Origin: a virus
IMG/VR virus record: IMGVR_UViG_3300037325_000455
Span: 1 to 31,977 of that record
Length of the DNA: 31,977 bases
Strand: one strand, 5' to 3'
This document shows, piece after piece, positions 1,388-11,594 of the stretch. The notes under the pieces are model-generated. The model was not told where the DNA came from, ran no database searches, and saw nothing but the letters and a program-made list of their open reading frames with translations. Every line of letters begins with the position of its first letter. Position 1 is the stretch's first letter. A program made the position numbers and the translations under genes.

Positions 1388-1416
1388 ATTATAACACATC
1401 TAGTAATAAAAGTAAA
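1388..1416 (-). promoter_or_regulatory. Early-type promoter for the tRNA operon
   Basis: TTTACT, 17-base spacer, TATAAT preceded by TGT (extended -10). It would drive the tRNA block down to about position 690. The -35 element follows directly on a terminator hairpin. Confidence 0.8.
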
Positions 1417-1444
1417 CCCCCGGGTCCTTGTGGAGTCCGGGGGT
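1416..1444 (-). terminator. GC-rich hairpin running into a T-rich -35 element
   Basis: The arms 1416-1423 and 1437-1444 (ACCCCCGG/CCGGGGGT) form a hairpin. On the minus strand it is followed at once by TTTACTTTTATT, which is both a plausible U tract and the -35 region of the next promoter. Confidence 0.6.
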
Positions 1445-1467
1445 CTGAAGTTGATCTTAGATCTGGT

Positions 1468-1617
1468 TCAGGTACCCGGAATTCCGGTCTCATAATGACG
1501 TGTATTTAGGCTTACCGGTGCCCACACGATGGACGGCTGGTTGCCGATCGCATCAAACCCGCGGAGGCACGTGCCCACCGATAAGGTTTTTGTGTGTTTC
1601 ATCGAATCAAATTTCAT
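1468..1617 (-). CDS. Small hypothetical protein (49 aa)
   Basis: This open frame starts MKFDSMKHTKTLSVG and ends ETGIPGT. I do not recognise the product. It has no clear ribosome-binding site (only GATAGAAA), but an exact late promoter lies at 1655-1662 and a terminator-like hairpin at 1416-1444, so it has the layout of a one-gene unit. An internal ATG gives a 44-aa version. The GC-rich sequence could instead be another structured RNA. Confidence 0.4.
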   Translation of the reverse strand: MKFDSMKHTKTLSVGTCLRGFDAIGNQPSIVWAPVSLNTRHYETGIPGT

Positions 1618-1654
1618 ACAATTTTCTATCTAAATCTCTTTGTTTGTTATAGCT

Positions 1655-1662
1655 TATTTATA
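1655..1662 (-). promoter_or_regulatory. Late promoter TATAAATA
   Basis: An exact T4-type late -10 element on the minus strand, about 38 bases before the 49-aa reading frame. Confidence 0.55.
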
Positions 1663-1690
1663 CATCTAAAACTTAGGGTTTTAGAAAAAC

Positions 1691-1780
1691 TTATCAGGTA
1701 GTAACGTGGAATCGAACCACATACCCAGCCCGGCGGGTAACAACCATGTTACGGTGATCAGCCGTTATACTACCTGATAA
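1691..1780 (-). ncRNA. tRNA-like RNA with a 13-bp terminal stem
   Basis: The ends 1691-1703 and 1768-1780 pair perfectly over 13 bp, longer than a 7-bp acceptor. Inside is a canonical T arm (TGTGG-TTCGATT-CCACG). The rest folds as short hairpins: CGG-CTGATCA-CCG, GTAAC-ATGGTT-GTTAC and CCC...GGG. I cannot fit a normal D arm plus anticodon arm: the first hairpin would give anticodon GAU and the second GGU with a six-base loop. The promoter at 1797-1825 directly precedes it, and a T-rich stretch follows its 3' end. Confidence 0.5.
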
Positions 1781-1796
1781 ATCATCCTAAGTTTCT

Positions 1797-1825
1797 ATTA
1801 TAACACAGTTCACAATAAAAGTAAA
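1797..1825 (-). promoter_or_regulatory. Early-type promoter of the 1691-1780 RNA
   Basis: TTTACT, 17 bases, TATAAT. The next element downstream is the tRNA-like RNA, with no reading frame between. Confidence 0.75.
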
Positions 1826-1828
1826 AAC

Positions 1829-1981
1829 ATTTTTGTGTGGTAGCGAAAGGATTTGAACCTTTCTCACCCGTCTGCGTTAGACGGATCGATGTGCTCCCCC
1901 AGTAAGAATTTTATCCGGTGTACTTTCGGAATTCTTACTAGACTTTTCGATTGCCTCTCCAAGAGGCTACCACACAAAAAT
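1829..1981 (-). ncRNA. tRNA-like RNA with a 16-bp terminal stem and internal hairpin
   Basis: The ends 1829-1844 and 1966-1981 pair over 16 bp. A T arm (AAAGG-TTCAAAT-CCTTT) lies at 1845-1863, and a long variable-arm-like hairpin (CCGTC/GACGG) before it suggests a class II tRNA ancestry. A 10-bp hairpin (1901-1910 with 1930-1939) sits where an anticodon loop would be expected: the flanking CTAGT/ACTGG could be an anticodon stem with a 33-base loop. It has its own promoter at 2017-2045. It may be an interrupted tRNA or a derived RNA. Confidence 0.5.
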
Positions 1982-2016
1982 ATTTTATTATCTAACCGTT
2001 CCCCTGAACATAAGTT

Positions 2017-2045
2017 ATTATAACACATTCAACAATAAAAGTAAA
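2017..2045 (-). promoter_or_regulatory. Early-type promoter of the 1829-1981 RNA
   Basis: TTTACT, 17 bases, TATAAT. Its transcript would begin with the same leader (AACTTATGTTCAGGGGAACG) as the next promoter upstream, at 2203-2231. Confidence 0.75.
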
Positions 2046-2111
2046 AACATTTTGGGAGATTGGTCCGAAGCTGGTGACTAAACCAATCTTCTTCCTGTTG
2101 CGTTCTTTTTT
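2034..2111. repeat. 78-bp direct repeat, copy 1
   Basis: This is identical to 3055-3132 except for two bases. The unit holds part of an early promoter and the hairpin formed by 2058-2064 with 2082-2088. Confidence 0.85.
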
Positions 2112-2170
2112 GGCGCTCCGGTGGCGTTTCTGCCCGGCGGATACTAAACAACAAGACTAACCAATCTCCC
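2054..2170 (-). ncRNA. Structured RNA with an 11-bp terminal stem
   Basis: The ends 2054-2064 and 2160-2170 pair perfectly. The 3' strand can instead pair with an internal copy at 2082-2088, so two folds compete. The middle is GC-rich with CCGG and GGCGC elements. No T arm of the GTTCGA type is present, so I do not call a tRNA. The promoter at 2203-2231 precedes it and the next promoter follows it, so it looks like a one-RNA transcription unit. Confidence 0.45.
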
Positions 2171-2202
2171 TAAATATTCTTCCGTTCCCCTGAACATAAG
2201 TT

Positions 2203-2231
2203 ATTATAACACATCCGACAATAAAAGTAAA
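2203..2231 (-). promoter_or_regulatory. Early-type promoter of the 2054-2170 RNA
   Basis: TTTACT, 17 bases, TATAAT. The -35 overlaps the end of the terminator hairpin 2228-2293. Confidence 0.75.
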
Positions 2232-2293
2232 GAGTGGGTAGCCTCTACCATTTATCACAGTAGCTGTACCTTGTACACCAGTCCCACTCTTTA
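2228..2293 (-). terminator. Long hairpin ending at a -35 element
   Basis: The arms 2228-2238 and 2283-2293 (11 bp) close a 44-base loop that itself contains GGTAG/CTACC and ACAG/CTGT stems. The descending arm ends CTCTTTACTTTTATT, so the T-rich tail is the -35 of the next promoter. It may also be a small structured RNA of its own. Confidence 0.5.
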
Positions 2294-2444
2294 TAAGAAG
2301 TGCCGCTAAAACATAGGGATTTTTACCCCGCATTTTCTTCTGGACTTTAGGCCCAGACACTGTGTACACAGTAAGGAACGCCAGCGGCCGACGTTCTGCA
2401 TTTACTTTCGGTTCATGACTCCCGATCAATTCTAAAATTCTTGA
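2294..2444 (-). other. Probable structured noncoding stretch
   Basis: Several short stems are visible (TCTGG/CCAGA around a nine-base loop, the palindrome ACTGTGTACACAGT, and GGG...CCC). A 90-codon open frame crosses this stretch but runs on through the terminator hairpin and a promoter, so I do not accept it as a gene. It is most likely part of the same transcript as the conserved RNA at 2445-2547. Confidence 0.35.
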
Positions 2445-2547
2445 AGGAATACACGGCGCCTACTGGGGTGCAACCCGTCTAGCTTCTGTCCTTCTTGCAG
2501 TTTTTCCGCCAATAACAACTTTCTTTACCCTACTGGACCGACTTCCT
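2445..2547 (-). ncRNA. Conserved structured RNA, copy A
   Basis: This is homologous to 3387-3507. Both share GGCGCCGTGTATTCC, AGGACAGAAGCTAG, a GCGG...CTGC stem and CCAGTAGGGTAA. The closing stem is AGGAA/TTCCT here (2543-2547 with 2445-2449) and TGATAGG/CCTATCA in the other copy, so both bases of the pairs changed together. The central insert differs in sequence and length. That pattern indicates a selected RNA structure. I do not recognise the family. It lies downstream of the 47-aa gene. Confidence 0.6.
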
Positions 2548-2681
2548 CTCGTAATCGTCACCTTTCGGTGAAGACCGCGGGCTCTGCCACGGCTCGGTTT
2601 TCATCTACTCTAGTACTTGTTGTTATCTTAGTTTCTATATCTACTTAATCTATAATATGAGTAAATGTTAAAGTTTACATA

Positions 2682-2825
2682 TCATCCCACGTTGGGGTAT
2701 ATGGGCTTGATCGGGTGAATATATTTACCCCAGCGACCGTATTCATAGAGACAAATCCACCAGCCAGGGCGGTCTCCGGAGGGAATCCAAGCAACCACAA
2801 ATTGATCCATCATATTTTTGTTCAT
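2682..2825 (-). CDS. Small hypothetical protein (47 aa), Trp/Gly/Pro-rich
   Basis: The reading frame starts MNKNMMDQFVVAWIPSGDRP and ends IKPIYPNVG. I do not recognise it. It has no membrane segment or signal peptide. The promoter at 2831-2859 puts its TATAAT only five bases before this ATG, so the message would be leaderless or the internal ATG at 2813 (43 aa) is used. It is one of a run of tiny genes with private promoters. Confidence 0.55.
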   Translation of the reverse strand: MNKNMMDQFVVAWIPSGDRPGWWICLYEYGRWGKYIHPIKPIYPNVG

Positions 2826-2830
2826 AAGTT

Positions 2831-2859
2831 ATTATAACACATCTAGTAATAAAAGTAAA
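2831..2859 (-). promoter_or_regulatory. Early-type promoter of the 47-aa gene
   Basis: TTTACT, 17 bases, TATAAT, ending five bases from the ATG at 2825. Confidence 0.75.
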
Positions 2860-2860
2860 A

Positions 2861-3010
2861 TCAGTCTTGAACAACTTCGAAAAAGACAGACACATCAAGA
2901 TTGGTTTGCTCTGCTTCTAGCATCAAGTCCTGTGCGTCTACTTCGGACAGGGAATCAGCAACAACAGTTCTGGATAAGGTATTGTCGTTGAAGGCGATGA
3001 CTGAAAACAT
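2861..3010 (-). CDS. Small acidic hypothetical protein (49 aa)
   Basis: The frame starts MFSVIAFNDNTLSRTVVADS and ends FFEVVQD. AAGGA lies seven bases upstream of the start and the promoter 3038-3066 precedes it, so expression is well supported although the function is unknown. The protein is acidic and soluble, with no membrane segment. The stop codon lies one base beyond the next promoter (2831-2859). Confidence 0.7.
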   Translation of the reverse strand: MFSVIAFNDNTLSRTVVADSLSEVDAQDLMLEAEQTNLDVSVFFEVVQD

Positions 3011-3037
3011 TTTGTGATCCTTGGTTGGTATGTGTTT

Positions 3038-3066
3038 ATTATAACACAGATGAGAATAAAAGTAAA
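3038..3066 (-). promoter_or_regulatory. Early-type promoter of the 49-aa gene
   Basis: TTTACT, 17 bases, TATAAT, followed by the leader ACACATACCAACCAAGGA, which is shared with the 61-aa gene promoter at 20628-20656 and nearly shared with two others. Confidence 0.8.
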
Positions 3067-3132
3067 AACATTTTGTGAGATTGGTCCGAAGCTGGTGACT
3101 AAACCAATCTTCATCCTGTTGCGTTCTTTTTT
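3055..3132. repeat. 78-bp direct repeat, copy 2
   Basis: This has two mismatches to 2034-2111. Read on the minus strand it runs from the stop codon of the 55-aa membrane protein through a hairpin (GATTGGT/ACCAATC) into a T-rich -35 element, so it works as a terminator-promoter cassette. Confidence 0.85.
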
Positions 3133-3298
3133 AATTTACAAAAATATTAATTAGTATAAGCAAAGACGGCATAGAAAACGATAATGCTAGTGCCCAAAAT
3201 AAAGAACTTTTATACCAAGGAGTATATTCAAGTCCAAGAATGCCACATAGTTCTTTTTCAGACATCTTACTAACATCAATATAGTGTATTGTTTTCAT
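3131..3298 (-). CDS. Small membrane protein (55 aa)
   Basis: The frame starts MKTIHYIDVSKMSEKELCGI. The second half (about residues 31-54, SSLFWALALSFSMPSLLILI) is one hydrophobic membrane-spanning segment, leaving a soluble N-terminal tail. GGAAA lies upstream of the start. No homologue is recognised. The stop codon falls inside the direct repeat. Confidence 0.65.
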   Translation of the reverse strand: MKTIHYIDVSKMSEKELCGILGLEYTPWYKSSLFWALALSFSMPSLLILINIFVN

Positions 3299-3386
3299 AT
3301 TCTTTTTCCATAGTTTTTAATCAGGTAATAACTTTTACCTGGTGCTTCTGCAATGCTACTATATAACACTATCATATTCAATATGG

Positions 3387-3507
3387 TGATAGGAATACAC
3401 GGCGCCAAGTCTATGCCACAAGGGCTAAAACCTAGCTTCTGTCCTATCAGCAGCAGTTTCCGCCGATAATAACTTTCCTTACCCTACTGGTCCGACTTTA
3501 CCTATCA
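3387..3507 (-). ncRNA. Conserved structured RNA, copy B
   Basis: This second copy of the RNA family at 2445-2547 is closed by TGATAGG/CCTATCA (3501-3507 with 3387-3393). The shared block GGAATACACGGCGCC occupies 3392-3406 on the plus strand, and CTAGCTTCTGTCCT 3432-3445. The GCGG-AAA-CTGC stem is kept with a shorter loop than in copy A. It lies downstream of the 3505-3756 unit in the same transcript, as copy A lies downstream of the 47-aa gene. Confidence 0.6.
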
Positions 3508-3585
3508 TCTATCAAAGTTTGTGCATTGAGCACAGGCAGTAATTGTATGAGCTGGGATAATTCTTTCTGGGATGATAAAGCTAGT
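3505..3585 (-). pseudogene. Truncated paralogue of the 3812-4015 gene, start codon lost
   Basis: The frame reads TSFIIPERIIPAHTITACAQ and ends NFDR. It matches the N-terminus of the neighbouring gene (TSFIIPERIIPAQTITACGH) almost residue for residue. The intact gene has AAAAATGACC at its start; here it is AAAAAGACT, so one T is missing and there is no start codon. The frame is continuous with the 50-aa gene upstream except for its TAA at 3604. It could be dead, or made only by stop read-through. Confidence 0.6.
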
Positions 3586-3603
3586 CTTTTTGTTATTTGC
3601 GAT

Positions 3604-3756
3604 TTACACAAGTTCTGCTTCAAAAACCTCGGCGTATACGCTAGCATAAAGCTGGTTGTCGATAATCTGACCGCCGTAGCACACTGCATACAACTCTGCA
3701 CAAGCCTTGACCGTAAATTTTATGACTTTGCCGCTGGAAGTGATAAGAATGTACAT
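3604..3756 (-). CDS. Small hypothetical protein (50 aa)
   Basis: The frame starts MYILITSSGKVIKFTVKACA and ends EVFEAELV. GGAAA lies seven bases upstream and the promoter 3780-3808 precedes it. I do not recognise it. It is probably a compact alpha-beta protein without a membrane segment. Its TAA is followed in frame by the start-less paralogue fragment at 3505-3585. Confidence 0.65.
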   Translation of the reverse strand: MYILITSSGKVIKFTVKACAELYAVCYGGQIIDNQLYASVYAEVFEAELV

Positions 3757-3779
3757 TTATGTTTCCGTGTTGATAAGTT

Positions 3780-3808
3780 ATTATATCACAGCCCAGAATA
3801 AAAGTAAA
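3780..3808 (-). promoter_or_regulatory. Early-type promoter of the 50-aa gene
   Basis: TTTACT, 17 bases, GATATAAT. It overlaps the region just after the 67-aa gene stop. Confidence 0.7.
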
Positions 3809-3811
3809 ACT

Positions 3812-4015
3812 TTACACAAGTGCCGGGCACATGATCCAGATAGTTTTCTCTGGATCGAATTTGAGAAAGTCAAAATATTCTCCGTTCGACCTCCAGTGCC
3901 CGCAGGCCTGATAGTTGCCCCAAGGACCAAGATCAGTTTCATAGTGGGGACAATGACCACATGCAGTAATGGTCTGAGCCGGGATAATTCTTTCCGGGAT
4001 AATAAAGCTGGTCAT
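3812..4015 (-). CDS. Hypothetical protein (67 aa) with Cys/His pairs
   Basis: I start it at MTSFIIPERIIPAQTITACG because AGGA lies nine bases upstream and because the paralogous fragment at 3505-3585 begins at the same point; a longer frame starts at 4051. It contains CGHCPH and, about 20 residues later, CGHW, a spacing that could bind zinc. The product is not recognised. It lies downstream of the 70-aa gene and is probably co-transcribed from the 4266-4294 promoter. Confidence 0.6.
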   Translation of the reverse strand: MTSFIIPERIIPAQTITACGHCPHYETDLGPWGNYQACGHWRSNGEYFDFLKFDPEKTIWIMCPALV

Positions 4016-4047
4016 TTTTGATATTCCTGGTTTAAAACGAGTTCTTA

Positions 4048-4260
4048 TCAAGTAAAAAATAGCATACCAGAGTCGTGCTTAAATAGGCTTATGGGTCTAT
4101 TATTAATTTTAGCAAAACTATAGTAATAGCAATCTTTCAGTACTTCATCAAAACAATTTCTTAACTTACAAGCATTCAATATGAATCCATTACAACTCAC
4201 CTTGTTATTAGCAAAATAGTATTGGGGACCGCTGTAAGTCTGTATAACTAATGTTTTCAT
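4048..4260 (-). CDS. Hypothetical protein (70 aa)
   Basis: The frame starts MKTLVIQTYSGPQYYFANNK. It is rich in Tyr, Phe and Cys and has no membrane segment. The promoter 4266-4294 ends five bases before the ATG, so the message would be leaderless or nearly so. No homologue is recognised. Confidence 0.6.
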   Translation of the reverse strand: MKTLVIQTYSGPQYYFANNKVSCNGFILNACKLRNCFDEVLKDCYYYSFAKINNRPISLFKHDSGMLFFT

Positions 4261-4265
4261 GATTT

Positions 4266-4294
4266 ATTATACCACAAGCAAGAATAAAAGTAAA
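4266..4294 (-). promoter_or_regulatory. Early-type promoter of the 70-aa gene
   Basis: TTTACT, 17 bases, TATAAT, five bases from the start codon. Confidence 0.75.
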
Positions 4295-6716: not shown

Positions 6717-7775
6717 TTAAATGTTGGCTAGTTCGGTATCGATTGCATCATCTGTTAGTAAAGCTCCATTGCTTACCTTATACGTTAAGGTTAGATAATC
6801 CTTGAATAGATTTGTTTTAAGAACCGGTGCCCAGAAGTCTTTATTATCAATATCCTTGGCTCGAAACTTTTTATCTTCCATAACACCATCATCATCAACT
6901 CTAGAATACCATCCATTAGAGGGTTTTTGAACAGCTTTACTATCTAATGCAATTTCAAGTAGACCGGTGTATTTTGATAAACCACCCTCAAACTTTACAG
7001 TAATAGGAATAGCAGATTTTTCTCTTACATATCTAGATTTTTCGATGCGGATAGTAAAATTATATCCAGATAGTTCCGTACCGTCCTTGTCCTGTGAACG
7101 TCCGATTAGCCATACATTATCGCTAGCCAACATTACACCAGTGCCGCCACTTAATACGGCCTTACTATAAATTTCTTGGGTCATATAAATGTGACCAATT
7201 TGTACTAAAGGAATATCCAAAATACGTAGGTACGGGGTAATGATTCGGTAGAAGCTTTTAAGGTATTTTGCCCTCGACATATCGCCCACAGATTTACCAT
7301 CGATAGCATCATCTTGTTCTTTTAAACTCGCAAGATTTCCTATCGAATCAATCATGAAGAATACCTTTTCACCCCTAGTAATGGTAGTCAATTGCTGCAT
7401 CATTTCAAACTTTAATTCTTCCAGATTTTTCACCGGAACATGCAGGACTCTAGAGGTATCAATTCCAACCGCTGAGAAGTACTCTTTGGGAGATCCAAAT
7501 TCCGAGTCCATAAAAAATAAAACTGCGTCCTTATGCTTTTTAAGATATGCAGCCGCAATGATTAGACCATACATAGTTTTAAAATGTCGACTTGGTCCAG
7601 CAATAGTAAGAATGCCCGACTTCATCCCGCCATCGATGCTGCCGGATAATGCAATATTAATCGCTGGGATATCCGTAATAGTTTCGTCGACATCGTTGAA
7701 GAAGGTGGACTTGTCCAAGACCGATGCGATCTTGATAGTTGAATTTTTCCGTAGCTTATCCATTAGAGACATCAT
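6717..7775 (-). CDS. uvsX: UvsX-like recombinase (RecA family)
   Basis: This 352-aa protein is close in size to T4 UvsX (about 390 aa). Walker A is GPSRHFKT at 60-67, the same form as the GPSKSFKS type of UvsX. FFMDSEFG and VFFMIDSIGNL follow in the order expected for the catalytic Glu and Walker B, and VQIGHIYMTQEIYSKAVLSG fits the L2 region. UvsX coats single-stranded DNA and drives strand invasion for recombination-dependent replication. AAGGA precedes the start, and the promoter at 7799-7833 is nearby. Confidence 0.92.
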   Translation of the reverse strand: MMSLMDKLRKNSTIKIASVLDKSTFFNDVDETITDIPAINIALSGSIDGGMKSGILTIAGPSRHFKTMYGLIIAAAYLKKHKDAVLFFMDSEFGSPKEYFSAVGIDTSRVLHVPVKNLEELKFEMMQQLTTITRGEKVFFMIDSIGNLASLKEQDDAIDGKSVGDMSRAKYLKSFYRIITPYLRILDIPLVQIGHIYMTQEIYSKAVLSGGTGVMLASDNVWLIGRSQDKDGTELSGYNFTIRIEKSRYVREKSAIPITVKFEGGLSKYTGLLEIALDSKAVQKPSNGWYSRVDDDGVMEDKKFRAKDIDNKDFWAPVLKTNLFKDYLTLTYKVSNGALLTDDAIDTELANI

Positions 7776-9066: not shown

Positions 9067-11594
9067 TAAAAGAACTCCGAAAGATCATTTCTATGCTCAG
9101 CCTTCCAGTTCATGGGCTCGATCATAAGTTGAACAGCATTCAGAAATACTTTTTCAAACTGAAGATCAACATCGATATATTTGTGTAGACCGAACTCAGT
9201 TGGTAGCTTGTTGTCCACAGGCCACCCGATGATGTTTTGGTGTAATGGATTTGGTTCTGCTAGGTAGATGAACTTAAGTTTGTTTCCTTCTTTTAAAGTC
9301 TCATATTTTTTAGTTAGGCCGTTTTTTTCTAATAGATGATTGTAGAGTAGGGCTGCTCTAACATGAATAGGTGTCTTCTTTCCGAAAATAGTATTAGGGT
9401 CAGAATATTCGGCTAGGTTAGACAGCCCACGCGGGAAAGCAATTTGTTCAACTGTCAAGTTAACAAAATCTGCTTTTACCTTTGCAATGTATTCTTGCAT
9501 TTCTGATTCGGTACTGTCAAGAATAATTTCAATTGAGTCTTTTAAAGCTTTTTGGATTATCTTAGGGGTAGATGACTTAATAATCTCCATTCCCATAATT
9601 TTCAATTTTGGCTTTGCATAGGATACACCTTCAGAGGAATAAACCCGTGCAAAGTATTTTTTCTTGCCAAGTTGGACCAGATGTGATGCTGCCATCTCAA
9701 GCTTCATATTAAATGTATTTTCATACACATTTAGTTTGGTCGCAATATCCTGAGTAATTTTTGTGATAACCGGCGACATTTTATCTTTAGCCAACTTCTC
9801 AATTAGCTTGATATTCTGCTCAACAGTATTGTTGGGTGCATATTTTTTGACTACCTTATCAAGTGTCATTATCGCACTATCGGTATCGGCATAGAACATA
9901 GTACCAGAACAATCTATCTTCATTACATCAGAAAACTCTTTGTCAAACCTAGCCTCTAAAGTTCGAAGTAATAGTTGACCGGTTAAAGTAATCGATTCTG
10001 CAATATCAGGATTGAAGTAACGAAACCCGGCATTGGCTAACGAGCCATAAAGTGAATTTAAATTCAGCTTATATGCAGTTTGAATGTTATTCAGTTCTGA
10101 ATATCGCTGTGATAAGATGAAAATTTCTTTTTTGTCATTGGTAGTTGTTTTTAATTGTTCAATCTGTCGCTCAATGTCAAGCATTAAGTTTTTAGCGTCT
10201 CGCCGCTTTGTCATATACAGTTTAATGACTAATGGAATAATACCTAGAGACTTTTTTGAATACATAGAACCATTAGGAGCAATACAGACTTCCGAATCTG
10301 TCTTAGGGTAAGTTCCAGCTAGACACGATTCAACCGTGCTTTCTGTTTGCCCCAGATATGTTTCTGGCGAAAGATTTAATGCGCGCATAATGCTAGGATA
10401 GAGCGATGAAAAATCAAAGGAAATAATCTGCCTATACATACCAGGGACCGGGGTTTTAACATAGGCCCCTTCAATCTGTGAAGTTATACCGCTACTCTTC
10501 CTTGGTGGTGTTACAATCCCCATACTTAAAAGTTGATTATGCATGATAGCATCCCAAGTTTTAACGGGGCTGTATACATCAGTATAGTTAATCCTAGCTT
10601 CATAAGCCATAGTACATGCCAGCTGGATTAATTTTAGTTTATCATTAATTTGGCTGACCAATTGCGTGTCAACAATATTATACTCCACGAACTCATCGAA
10701 TGCATTACGATAGAACGCATCAAATGATTCCTCGGGATTTTCGAGTTTTGTAGTACCTAATTCTTCCTGGGCAACCGAGCCAAGACTCCAACTCTCACGA
10801 GCATTGGTGGTGAATTTTTTCATTAACAGCATCATATCTAGGACAGACACACCAACGATAGAATATTCACATTCTTCTCGGCCCTGAAACATTCTCAATT
10901 TGAAATCAACCTGACCCCAAGGAGATAACTTCTTGGTAAAGTCGGGACCAAGTATGATATTAAGTCGATTAACCAGGTACGGCATATCGAAGCCATCACA
11001 ATTCCAGCCAGTAATAACATCAGGTTGTTTTTGTTCCCAGAACATTAGGAACATTTTCAGTAGTGTTTTTTCATCTGAGCATTGAGTATAAGCCGTTTCG
11101 ACCTTATGCTTTCCAGTCGGTGTATATTTCTTAGTCCCCCAGGTATAGCAACGCTTGGTATGCATATCCTGAAGAGTAATTAGTTGAACCTCACCGAGGG
11201 CATATTTTGGGTCAGGAAAATTTCCGTCGGCCGACCCGGTTTCAATATCAATTGAGTATGCTTTAATATGTTTGAAATCCCATCCAGTAAATTGGTATTC
11301 ATTCGCATATTGTAGTATTTCATTCTGTTGACCAAATACTTCTACGCCAGAAATACCGGTGTATTGTTTGCACCATTCCCTGGCTTCATACATATTTCCT
11401 GGCTTAACAGCCTTAACTGAATCACCATAAAGCGTCTTCAGGCCAGAATTATTGCTTGCATCTTTAAGATAGTAGGTAGGTGACCAAATGTCTTTTCGTA
11501 GAGAATGAATCCCATCAACAACCTCGCGAACTAGAATGCTTTGTCCACTTTTGGCAATAGAAGTATAGAATCGGTTATTTTTCGCAGTGTTCAT
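9066..11594 (-). CDS. 43: DNA polymerase, gp43-like (family B)
   Basis: It has an exonuclease Exo I motif (YSIDIETGS, about 113-121 from this start), polymerase motif A (DFSSLYPS) and motif C (YADTDS), so both proofreading and synthesis sites look intact. The 842-aa length is slightly under T4 gp43 (898 aa). I start at MNTAKNNRFYTSI: the frame is open further to 11645, but those codons lie inside a large inverted repeat with no ribosome-binding site. The C-terminus RNDLSEFF is a plausible sliding-clamp-binding peptide. The promoter is at 11681-11715. Confidence 0.95.
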   Translation of the reverse strand: MNTAKNNRFYTSIAKSGQSILVREVVDGIHSLRKDIWSPTYYLKDASNNSGLKTLYGDSVKAVKPGNMYEAREWCKQYTGISGVEVFGQQNEILQYANEYQFTGWDFKHIKAYSIDIETGSADGNFPDPKYALGEVQLITLQDMHTKRCYTWGTKKYTPTGKHKVETAYTQCSDEKTLLKMFLMFWEQKQPDVITGWNCDGFDMPYLVNRLNIILGPDFTKKLSPWGQVDFKLRMFQGREECEYSIVGVSVLDMMLLMKKFTTNARESWSLGSVAQEELGTTKLENPEESFDAFYRNAFDEFVEYNIVDTQLVSQINDKLKLIQLACTMAYEARINYTDVYSPVKTWDAIMHNQLLSMGIVTPPRKSSGITSQIEGAYVKTPVPGMYRQIISFDFSSLYPSIMRALNLSPETYLGQTESTVESCLAGTYPKTDSEVCIAPNGSMYSKKSLGIIPLVIKLYMTKRRDAKNLMLDIERQIEQLKTTTNDKKEIFILSQRYSELNNIQTAYKLNLNSLYGSLANAGFRYFNPDIAESITLTGQLLLRTLEARFDKEFSDVMKIDCSGTMFYADTDSAIMTLDKVVKKYAPNNTVEQNIKLIEKLAKDKMSPVITKITQDIATKLNVYENTFNMKLEMAASHLVQLGKKKYFARVYSSEGVSYAKPKLKIMGMEIIKSSTPKIIQKALKDSIEIILDSTESEMQEYIAKVKADFVNLTVEQIAFPRGLSNLAEYSDPNTIFGKKTPIHVRAALLYNHLLEKNGLTKKYETLKEGNKLKFIYLAEPNPLHQNIIGWPVDNKLPTEFGLHKYIDVDLQFEKVFLNAVQLMIEPMNWKAEHRNDLSEFF

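Follow-up and report, generated by a model that had tools for sequence, protein, structure and literature searches.

The tRNA arrays of many uncultivated, often very large, T4-like phages carry a structured non-coding RNA family of about 210 nt. It was recognised in a window of 31,977 bases, the whole of one IMG/VR virus record, and as no catalogued family fits it, we call it a new RNA family of the "structured RNA of phage tRNA islands" kind. It is reasonable to think, at a probability of roughly 55%, that it is a stable trans-acting RNA that would be released by tRNA processing and would work together with a partner.

The window derives from a T4-like phage; among the translations of its minus-strand ORFs we read a helicase of DnaB type, a RecA/UvsX-like protein and a DNA polymerase of family B. 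Its left end carries, on the minus strand, two tRNA-Leu genes and one tRNA-Glu gene, together with 4 kb of structured RNA interspersed with small ORFs; PHROGs returned no match for six small window ORFs. Several other elements were seen in this region. Eight promoter-like sites with identical hexamers, TTTACT-N17-TATAAT, are distributed over the array's small units at 1388-4294 (minus strand; consensus match). tRNA-like elements that ARAGORN did not call occur on the same strand at 1200-2180 (for instance 1697-1774, with a weak tRNA-Sec model match), and another, with a hairpin insert, at about 1836-1980; a further example is the paired arms at 2038-2064/2160-2186 (minus strand), partly repeated at 3036-3132. 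A near-perfect 22-nt inverted repeat with a 27-nt loop (1117-1138/1166-1187) lies within the tRNA region.

A first-pass annotation of the window, made from its letters alone, had proposed a duplicated structured RNA family without a name, and the three sequence blocks on which it relied are indeed exact in both copies (Table 1). Their sharing is not due to chance: the window contains two occurrences of CCAGTAGGGTAA with at most one mismatch against an expectation of 0.07, and copies A and B align with an E-value of about 3e-13. The limits 2445-2547 were too narrow, however, as copy A spans 2438-2635 and has a conserved 5' domain that had been missed. The annotation had also described a closing helix kept by paired changes, AGGAA/TTCCT in one copy against TGATAGG/CCTATCA in the other. 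This change is real for the internal strand of helix h7, which covaries, but the outer strand (AGGAA or TGATAGG) was mis-assigned and is not the partner: throughout the family UCCUUC pairs with the internal GAAGGA, and in copy B TGATAGGA pairs with TCCTATCA. The mistake arose because TGATAGG occurs twice in copy B. A small minus-strand ORF does precede each copy (2682-2825 and 3604-3756), yet this linkage to small genes does not hold elsewhere, where the new RNA follows tRNAs.

Table 1. Features of the new RNA and its surroundings in the window
Feature	Position	Strand	Evidence or remark
RNA-2, second structured family, directly downstream of copy A	2312-2433	-	nhmmer E 3e-20; covariation in alignment A3
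Copy A, complete member, 198 nt	2438-2635	-	cmsearch, full-length over model 1-213 at 168.1 bits; first row of alignment A2
h2 5' strand GATAACAACA	2618-2627, pairs with 2511-2520	-	double changes in 9/10 pairs; recovered in single-sequence fold of copy A
h2 3' strand AGTTGTTATT	2511-2520	-	innermost pair not formed in copy A
h3 5' strand ACCGA	2594-2598, pairs with TCGGT 2537-2541	-	98.8% of cells paired
h3 3' strand TCGGT	2537-2541	-	
Hairpin h4 GCCGTGGCAGAGCCCGCGGT	2574-2593	-	double changes in 4/6 pairs; 4 pairs E<=0.05 (tree-aware)
Hairpin h5 TCACCGAAAGGTGA, GAAA-capped	2558-2571	-	double changes in 3/4 pairs
Hairpin h6 GGCGG...CTGCA	2496-2510	-	92% of cells paired, mostly invariant
h7 5' strand GAAGGA, closes 3' domain	2489-2494	-	double changes in 5/6 pairs; 4 pairs E<=0.05
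h7 3' strand TCCTTC	2443-2448	-	
Inner stem h8 with variable loop, GCTAG...TAGGC	2458-2483	-	double changes in 3/4 pairs
Shared block GGCGCCGTGTATTCC	2446-2460 / 3392-3406	-	exact in both copies
Shared block AGGACAGAAGCTAG	2479-2492 / 3432-3445	-	exact in both copies
Shared block CCAGTAGGGTAA	2525-2536 / 3479-3490	-	exact in both copies
Promoter-like site TTTACT-N17-TATAAT upstream of copy A	2831-2859	-	consensus match only
Copy B, 5'-truncated relic, 3' domain intact	3383-3512	-	71 bits (cmsearch span reported 3383-3597)

Duplication is not a property of the family. When whole records were searched, 39 of 40 contained exactly one match, among them 12 records longer than 100 kb, including some of 260-354 kb; three records searched later also had one match each. 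Copy B keeps the core and the 3' domain and has lost the 5' strands of h2 and h3. Upstream of it there is no partner for the long-range helix, no ACCGA block and no GTAGA block, and its core carries a T-to-A change in the otherwise invariant GGUCC. It starts directly after a partial 80-nt duplicate of the small gene at 3812-4051 (repeat D3, 3512-3591/3939-4018, 81%). In the sister contig L084 about 10 nt of the core are deleted, and a B-like copy in the record of L105 (G045) is confined to its 3' part. We read copy B as a relic of recombination and the duplication in the window as a local accident.

Homologues were sought by several routes. A first exact scan of viral contigs with two blocks returned 0 loci. 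GGCGCCGTGTATTCC alone gave 32 matches, four of which lie in related sequence (L084, L086, L092 and, in part, L105); the others have only the 15-base word in common with the window. An exact scan of IMG/VR viral contigs with the core AAGTCGGWCCAGTAGGG yielded 54 loci, and 50 of these match the final covariance model. On the 5' side of the core, these loci share a further conserved stretch, AAUACUAAG...GAGUAGAYGGAAACCGA, which the first reading had not noticed. An independent 5' pattern, GTAGAYGRAAACCGASC, gave 62 loci, with 51 members by the covariance model. Since the core plays no part in this second scan, its conservation is not merely a product of the way the first loci were picked. Most of the evidence comes from metagenomic contigs picked by conserved patterns, and apparent invariance is inflated in the pattern columns. 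In total, 56 IMG/VR loci besides the window match the new RNA, some of them near-identical.

The covariance search of Rfam and phage metagenomes that had been proposed for this RNA thus gave dozens of phage homologues and no Rfam 15 match, either at the gathering cut-off or, for the RNA alone, at E-values up to 10. A match to RT-18 reached 16.5 bits against a cut-off of 41.3, was absent from a sister sequence and is attributed to chance. The new RNA was detected as neither tRNA nor tmRNA by ARAGORN and Rfam. No description of such an RNA was found in the open literature (subscription journals lay mostly outside its coverage). It is non-coding: each of the three frames contains a stop in 42 of the 44 members, and block spacings are distributed over all three phases. 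Since homologues also covary, neither of the grounds for doubt named in advance, translation of a copy or a lack of covarying homologues, applies, and the early view is borne out that this is a structured RNA of phages, built on a conserved core and outside any named family.

The fold consists of a 5' domain, in which the long-range helix h2 encloses the three-way arrangement of h3, h4 and h5, and a 3' domain formed by h6, h7 and h8. In an alignment of 34 full-length sequences made without reference to structure (A2), 93.8% of the cells of the named structure are paired and 25 of 44 pairs show double changes. The covariation score was 0.383, compared with 0.063-0.094 for slid partners (0/500 shuffles). 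RNAalifold, given no structure, predicted 39 pairs, 22 of them with double changes, in essentially the same helices. A tree-aware null supported 17 of 45 structure pairs at E<=0.05, located in h2, h4, h5, h7 and h8; this home-made test follows R-scape in moving substitutions randomly over a FastTree tree (44 sequences) and yields approximate E-values. Since h3 is nearly invariant and h6 mostly so, covariation support is neither gained nor lost for these two helices. The folding energy of copy A alone is unremarkable (z -1.2), and its minimum-energy fold shows h2, h4, h5, h6 and h7.

In most members h2 is formed by GACAAUACUU and AAGUAUUGUU, and the region that it encloses, with h3, h4 and h5, has the near-invariant sequence GAGUAGAYG-AAACCGA ... 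UCGGUCCAGUAGGG. The internal loop between h7 and h8 contains near-invariant CAGAA and GCCGYGUAW. Loop length differs among members in h5 and h8, and otherwise different members have these loops in common, which looks like an exchange of peripheral parts. The tree-aware test showed two alternative sequence modules for the segment that separates h5 from h3. A 5' hairpin, h1 (UACU/AGUA), which would turn h2 into a pseudoknot, is possible; 93% of its cells are paired, with no covariation.

The genomic setting is dominated by tRNAs. All 665 tRNAs in 42 loci lie on the strand of the new RNA, at least one tRNA is present in 40 of the 42, and arrays reach 41 tRNAs. Several members start 0-2 nt after the upstream tRNA and stop 3-6 nt before the next one, and 24 of 44 members have a CCA no more than 6 nt upstream. 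Because the new RNA abuts tRNAs in this way, its ends are probably set by tRNA processing. In the window itself, the nearest recognised downstream tRNA is 1.4 kb from copy A.

Other elements accompany the new RNA. The family next to copy A, RNA-2, has no Rfam match in the window, shows double changes in 10 of 17 predicted pairs (A3), contains a GGGGUAAGAGUCCC-like hairpin and occurs in over a dozen phages (L115, L117, L121, L133, L138, L140, L142, L146, L154, L155, L164, L166 and L177). Elements of 77-85 nt that ARAGORN did not call lie between tRNA and new RNA in L133, L160 (upstream of the new RNA), L147, L128 and L159; those of L133 and L160 are nearly identical. On the 3' side of the new RNA in L124, L122, L157 and L152, a long stem, AUAUUGAAGCACA ... 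UGUGCUUCAAUAU, surrounds a further RNA of about 50-100 nt. tRNAs with stop-codon anticodons (CTA, TTA) were seen in L164 (9453-9527), L130 (493-568) and L155 (7324-7398), a hint that some carrier phages may recode or suppress stop codons.

The T4 major capsid protein Gp23 is encoded by 15 of 33 records. The capsid of G021 is closest to those of Stenotrophomonas phage DLP6 and Sinorhizobium phages phiN3 and phiM12, and that of G029 (321 kb) to Vibrio phage 2.275.O, Sinorhizobium phage Phosso and Pseudomonas phages PA5oct and Paride. A covariance search found no member in seven isolates, covering whole DLP6, the tRNA regions of Phosso, PA5oct and Vibrio 2.275.O, fetched stretches of phiM12 and phiN3, and the T4 tRNA cluster. 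Blastn against isolate phages with five queries gave no real match, and 80 loci from phages that encode a related DnaB-like protein contained no match to the new RNA. Two patterns had 0 and 3 matches in GTDB genomes, the three being without covariance match or tRNAs. Two weak covariance matches were rejected, one of 17 bits in G051, with no tRNA in the surrounding 10 kb, and one of 16.2 bits in Vibrio phage 2.275.O, outside its tRNA cluster. No rRNA-like similarity to the new RNA was found in E. coli genomes.

The distribution is therefore patchy even among phages with large arrays, and the family is known here only from uncultivated phages. As DLP6 and Phosso are related isolates with big arrays and lack the new RNA, it is dispensable in that niche. 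In DLP6 (L284, KU682439.2), a 20-kb piece contains a tmRNA and 37 tRNAs by ARAGORN, and the piece next to it one more tRNA; 30 tRNAs are given in the genome paper, and the word tmRNA is absent from its text.

With regard to function, for which the first-pass annotation had suggested a perhaps regulatory or ribozyme-like RNA, the tRNA-array setting favors a trans-acting RNA over a cis-regulator. A riboswitch or other cis-regulator of the neighbouring small genes would fit the window, where both copies adjoin small ORFs. However, no conserved gene follows the new RNA across the loci compared; in other phages a tRNA or another RNA takes that place, which makes this explanation very improbable.

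It is also unlikely that the new RNA acts in cis to help cut the array transcript, as a processing element or a self-cleaving ribozyme. Its small size, its tight packing between tRNAs and its highly conserved unpaired bases, as in ribozymes, would agree with such a role, but a single copy is too few for an array of up to 41 tRNAs. In addition, no Rfam ribozyme covariance model matches it, and ordinary enzymes could mature the neighbouring tRNAs.

A further candidate is a highly divergent phage RNase P-like RNA that would mature phage tRNAs. Like bacterial RNase P RNA, the new RNA is single-copy and tied to tRNA, and GGACAGAAG resembles the ACAGNRA motif of RNase P, a vague resemblance that serves as a lead only. 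The topology differs, however: GUCGG pairs with the upstream ACCGA and not with the 3' strand after ACAGAA, as helix P4 requires, and the strand after ACAGAA forms the local stem h8. No RNase P covariance match was obtained in the new RNA or in the records, no RNase P protein was found in 19 records, and related arrays manage without the new RNA. We regard an RNase P-like role as highly doubtful.

GOLLD (RF02032) and ROOL, RNAs of phage tRNA islands whose function is unknown (PMC12286853), offer another comparison. GOLLD is likewise structured, and ROOL, itself pseudoknotted, is a phage or prophage RNA found near tRNA islands (PMC12286853). The new RNA could thus be a similar RNA-only assembly, a multimer of several copies that shelters or binds another molecule. 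The shared habitat (PMC12286853) and the swappable peripheral loops around a fixed core are consistent with this, as is the occurrence of GOLLD, a permuted tmRNA and the new RNA in one array of a 300-kb record. The array in question, in L143 (299,983 bases), contains the new RNA at 7171-7373, GOLLD at 9451-9914, a permuted tmRNA match and 36 tRNAs. In contrast, GOLLD shows neither a sequence nor a covariance match to the new RNA (the window has no match to RF02032, whose threshold is 150 bits), and the Rfam ROOL model does not match it. The new RNA, at about 200-250 nt, is also far shorter than ROOL env-120, of 659 nt, or GOLLD members, which often exceed 800 nt (PMC12286853). Membership in such a class of assemblies is improbable on these grounds. 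A tmRNA, permuted or ordinary, is also present in some carrier arrays, at other positions than the new RNA.

A parallel in a T4-like phage is offered by the T4 species 1 and 2 RNAs (rnaC and rnaD), a stable pair of small RNAs encoded beside tRNAs. They differ in length (139 and 119 nt), and with filters off the best score in the T4 tRNA cluster was 7.7 bits, outside rnaC and rnaD, so the model gives no homology.

We return to a stable trans-acting RNA as the preferred reading. The new RNA would be transcribed as part of the tRNA array, its 5' end would be left by 3' maturation of the preceding tRNA, and its 3' end would be made ahead of the next tRNA, by RNase P or by some other cleavage. During infection it would then most likely bind a component of translation or of RNA metabolism that belongs to the host or to the phage.

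The usual view of phage tRNA arrays is that they store tRNA. Here, many large phages keep in them a single copy of a conserved RNA that is unrelated to tRNA. More tentatively, the new RNA may found a new functional class, catalytic or self-assembling and single-copy in the tRNA arrays of large phages, that remodels host translation or protects the tRNA pool. With a defined sequence, a fold supported by covariation and predicted ends, its stability, structure, partners and catalysis are directly testable with synthetic RNA. The presence of the new RNA, RNA-2 and GOLLD in similar arrays suggests that such arrays contain a wider set of unnamed structured RNAs.
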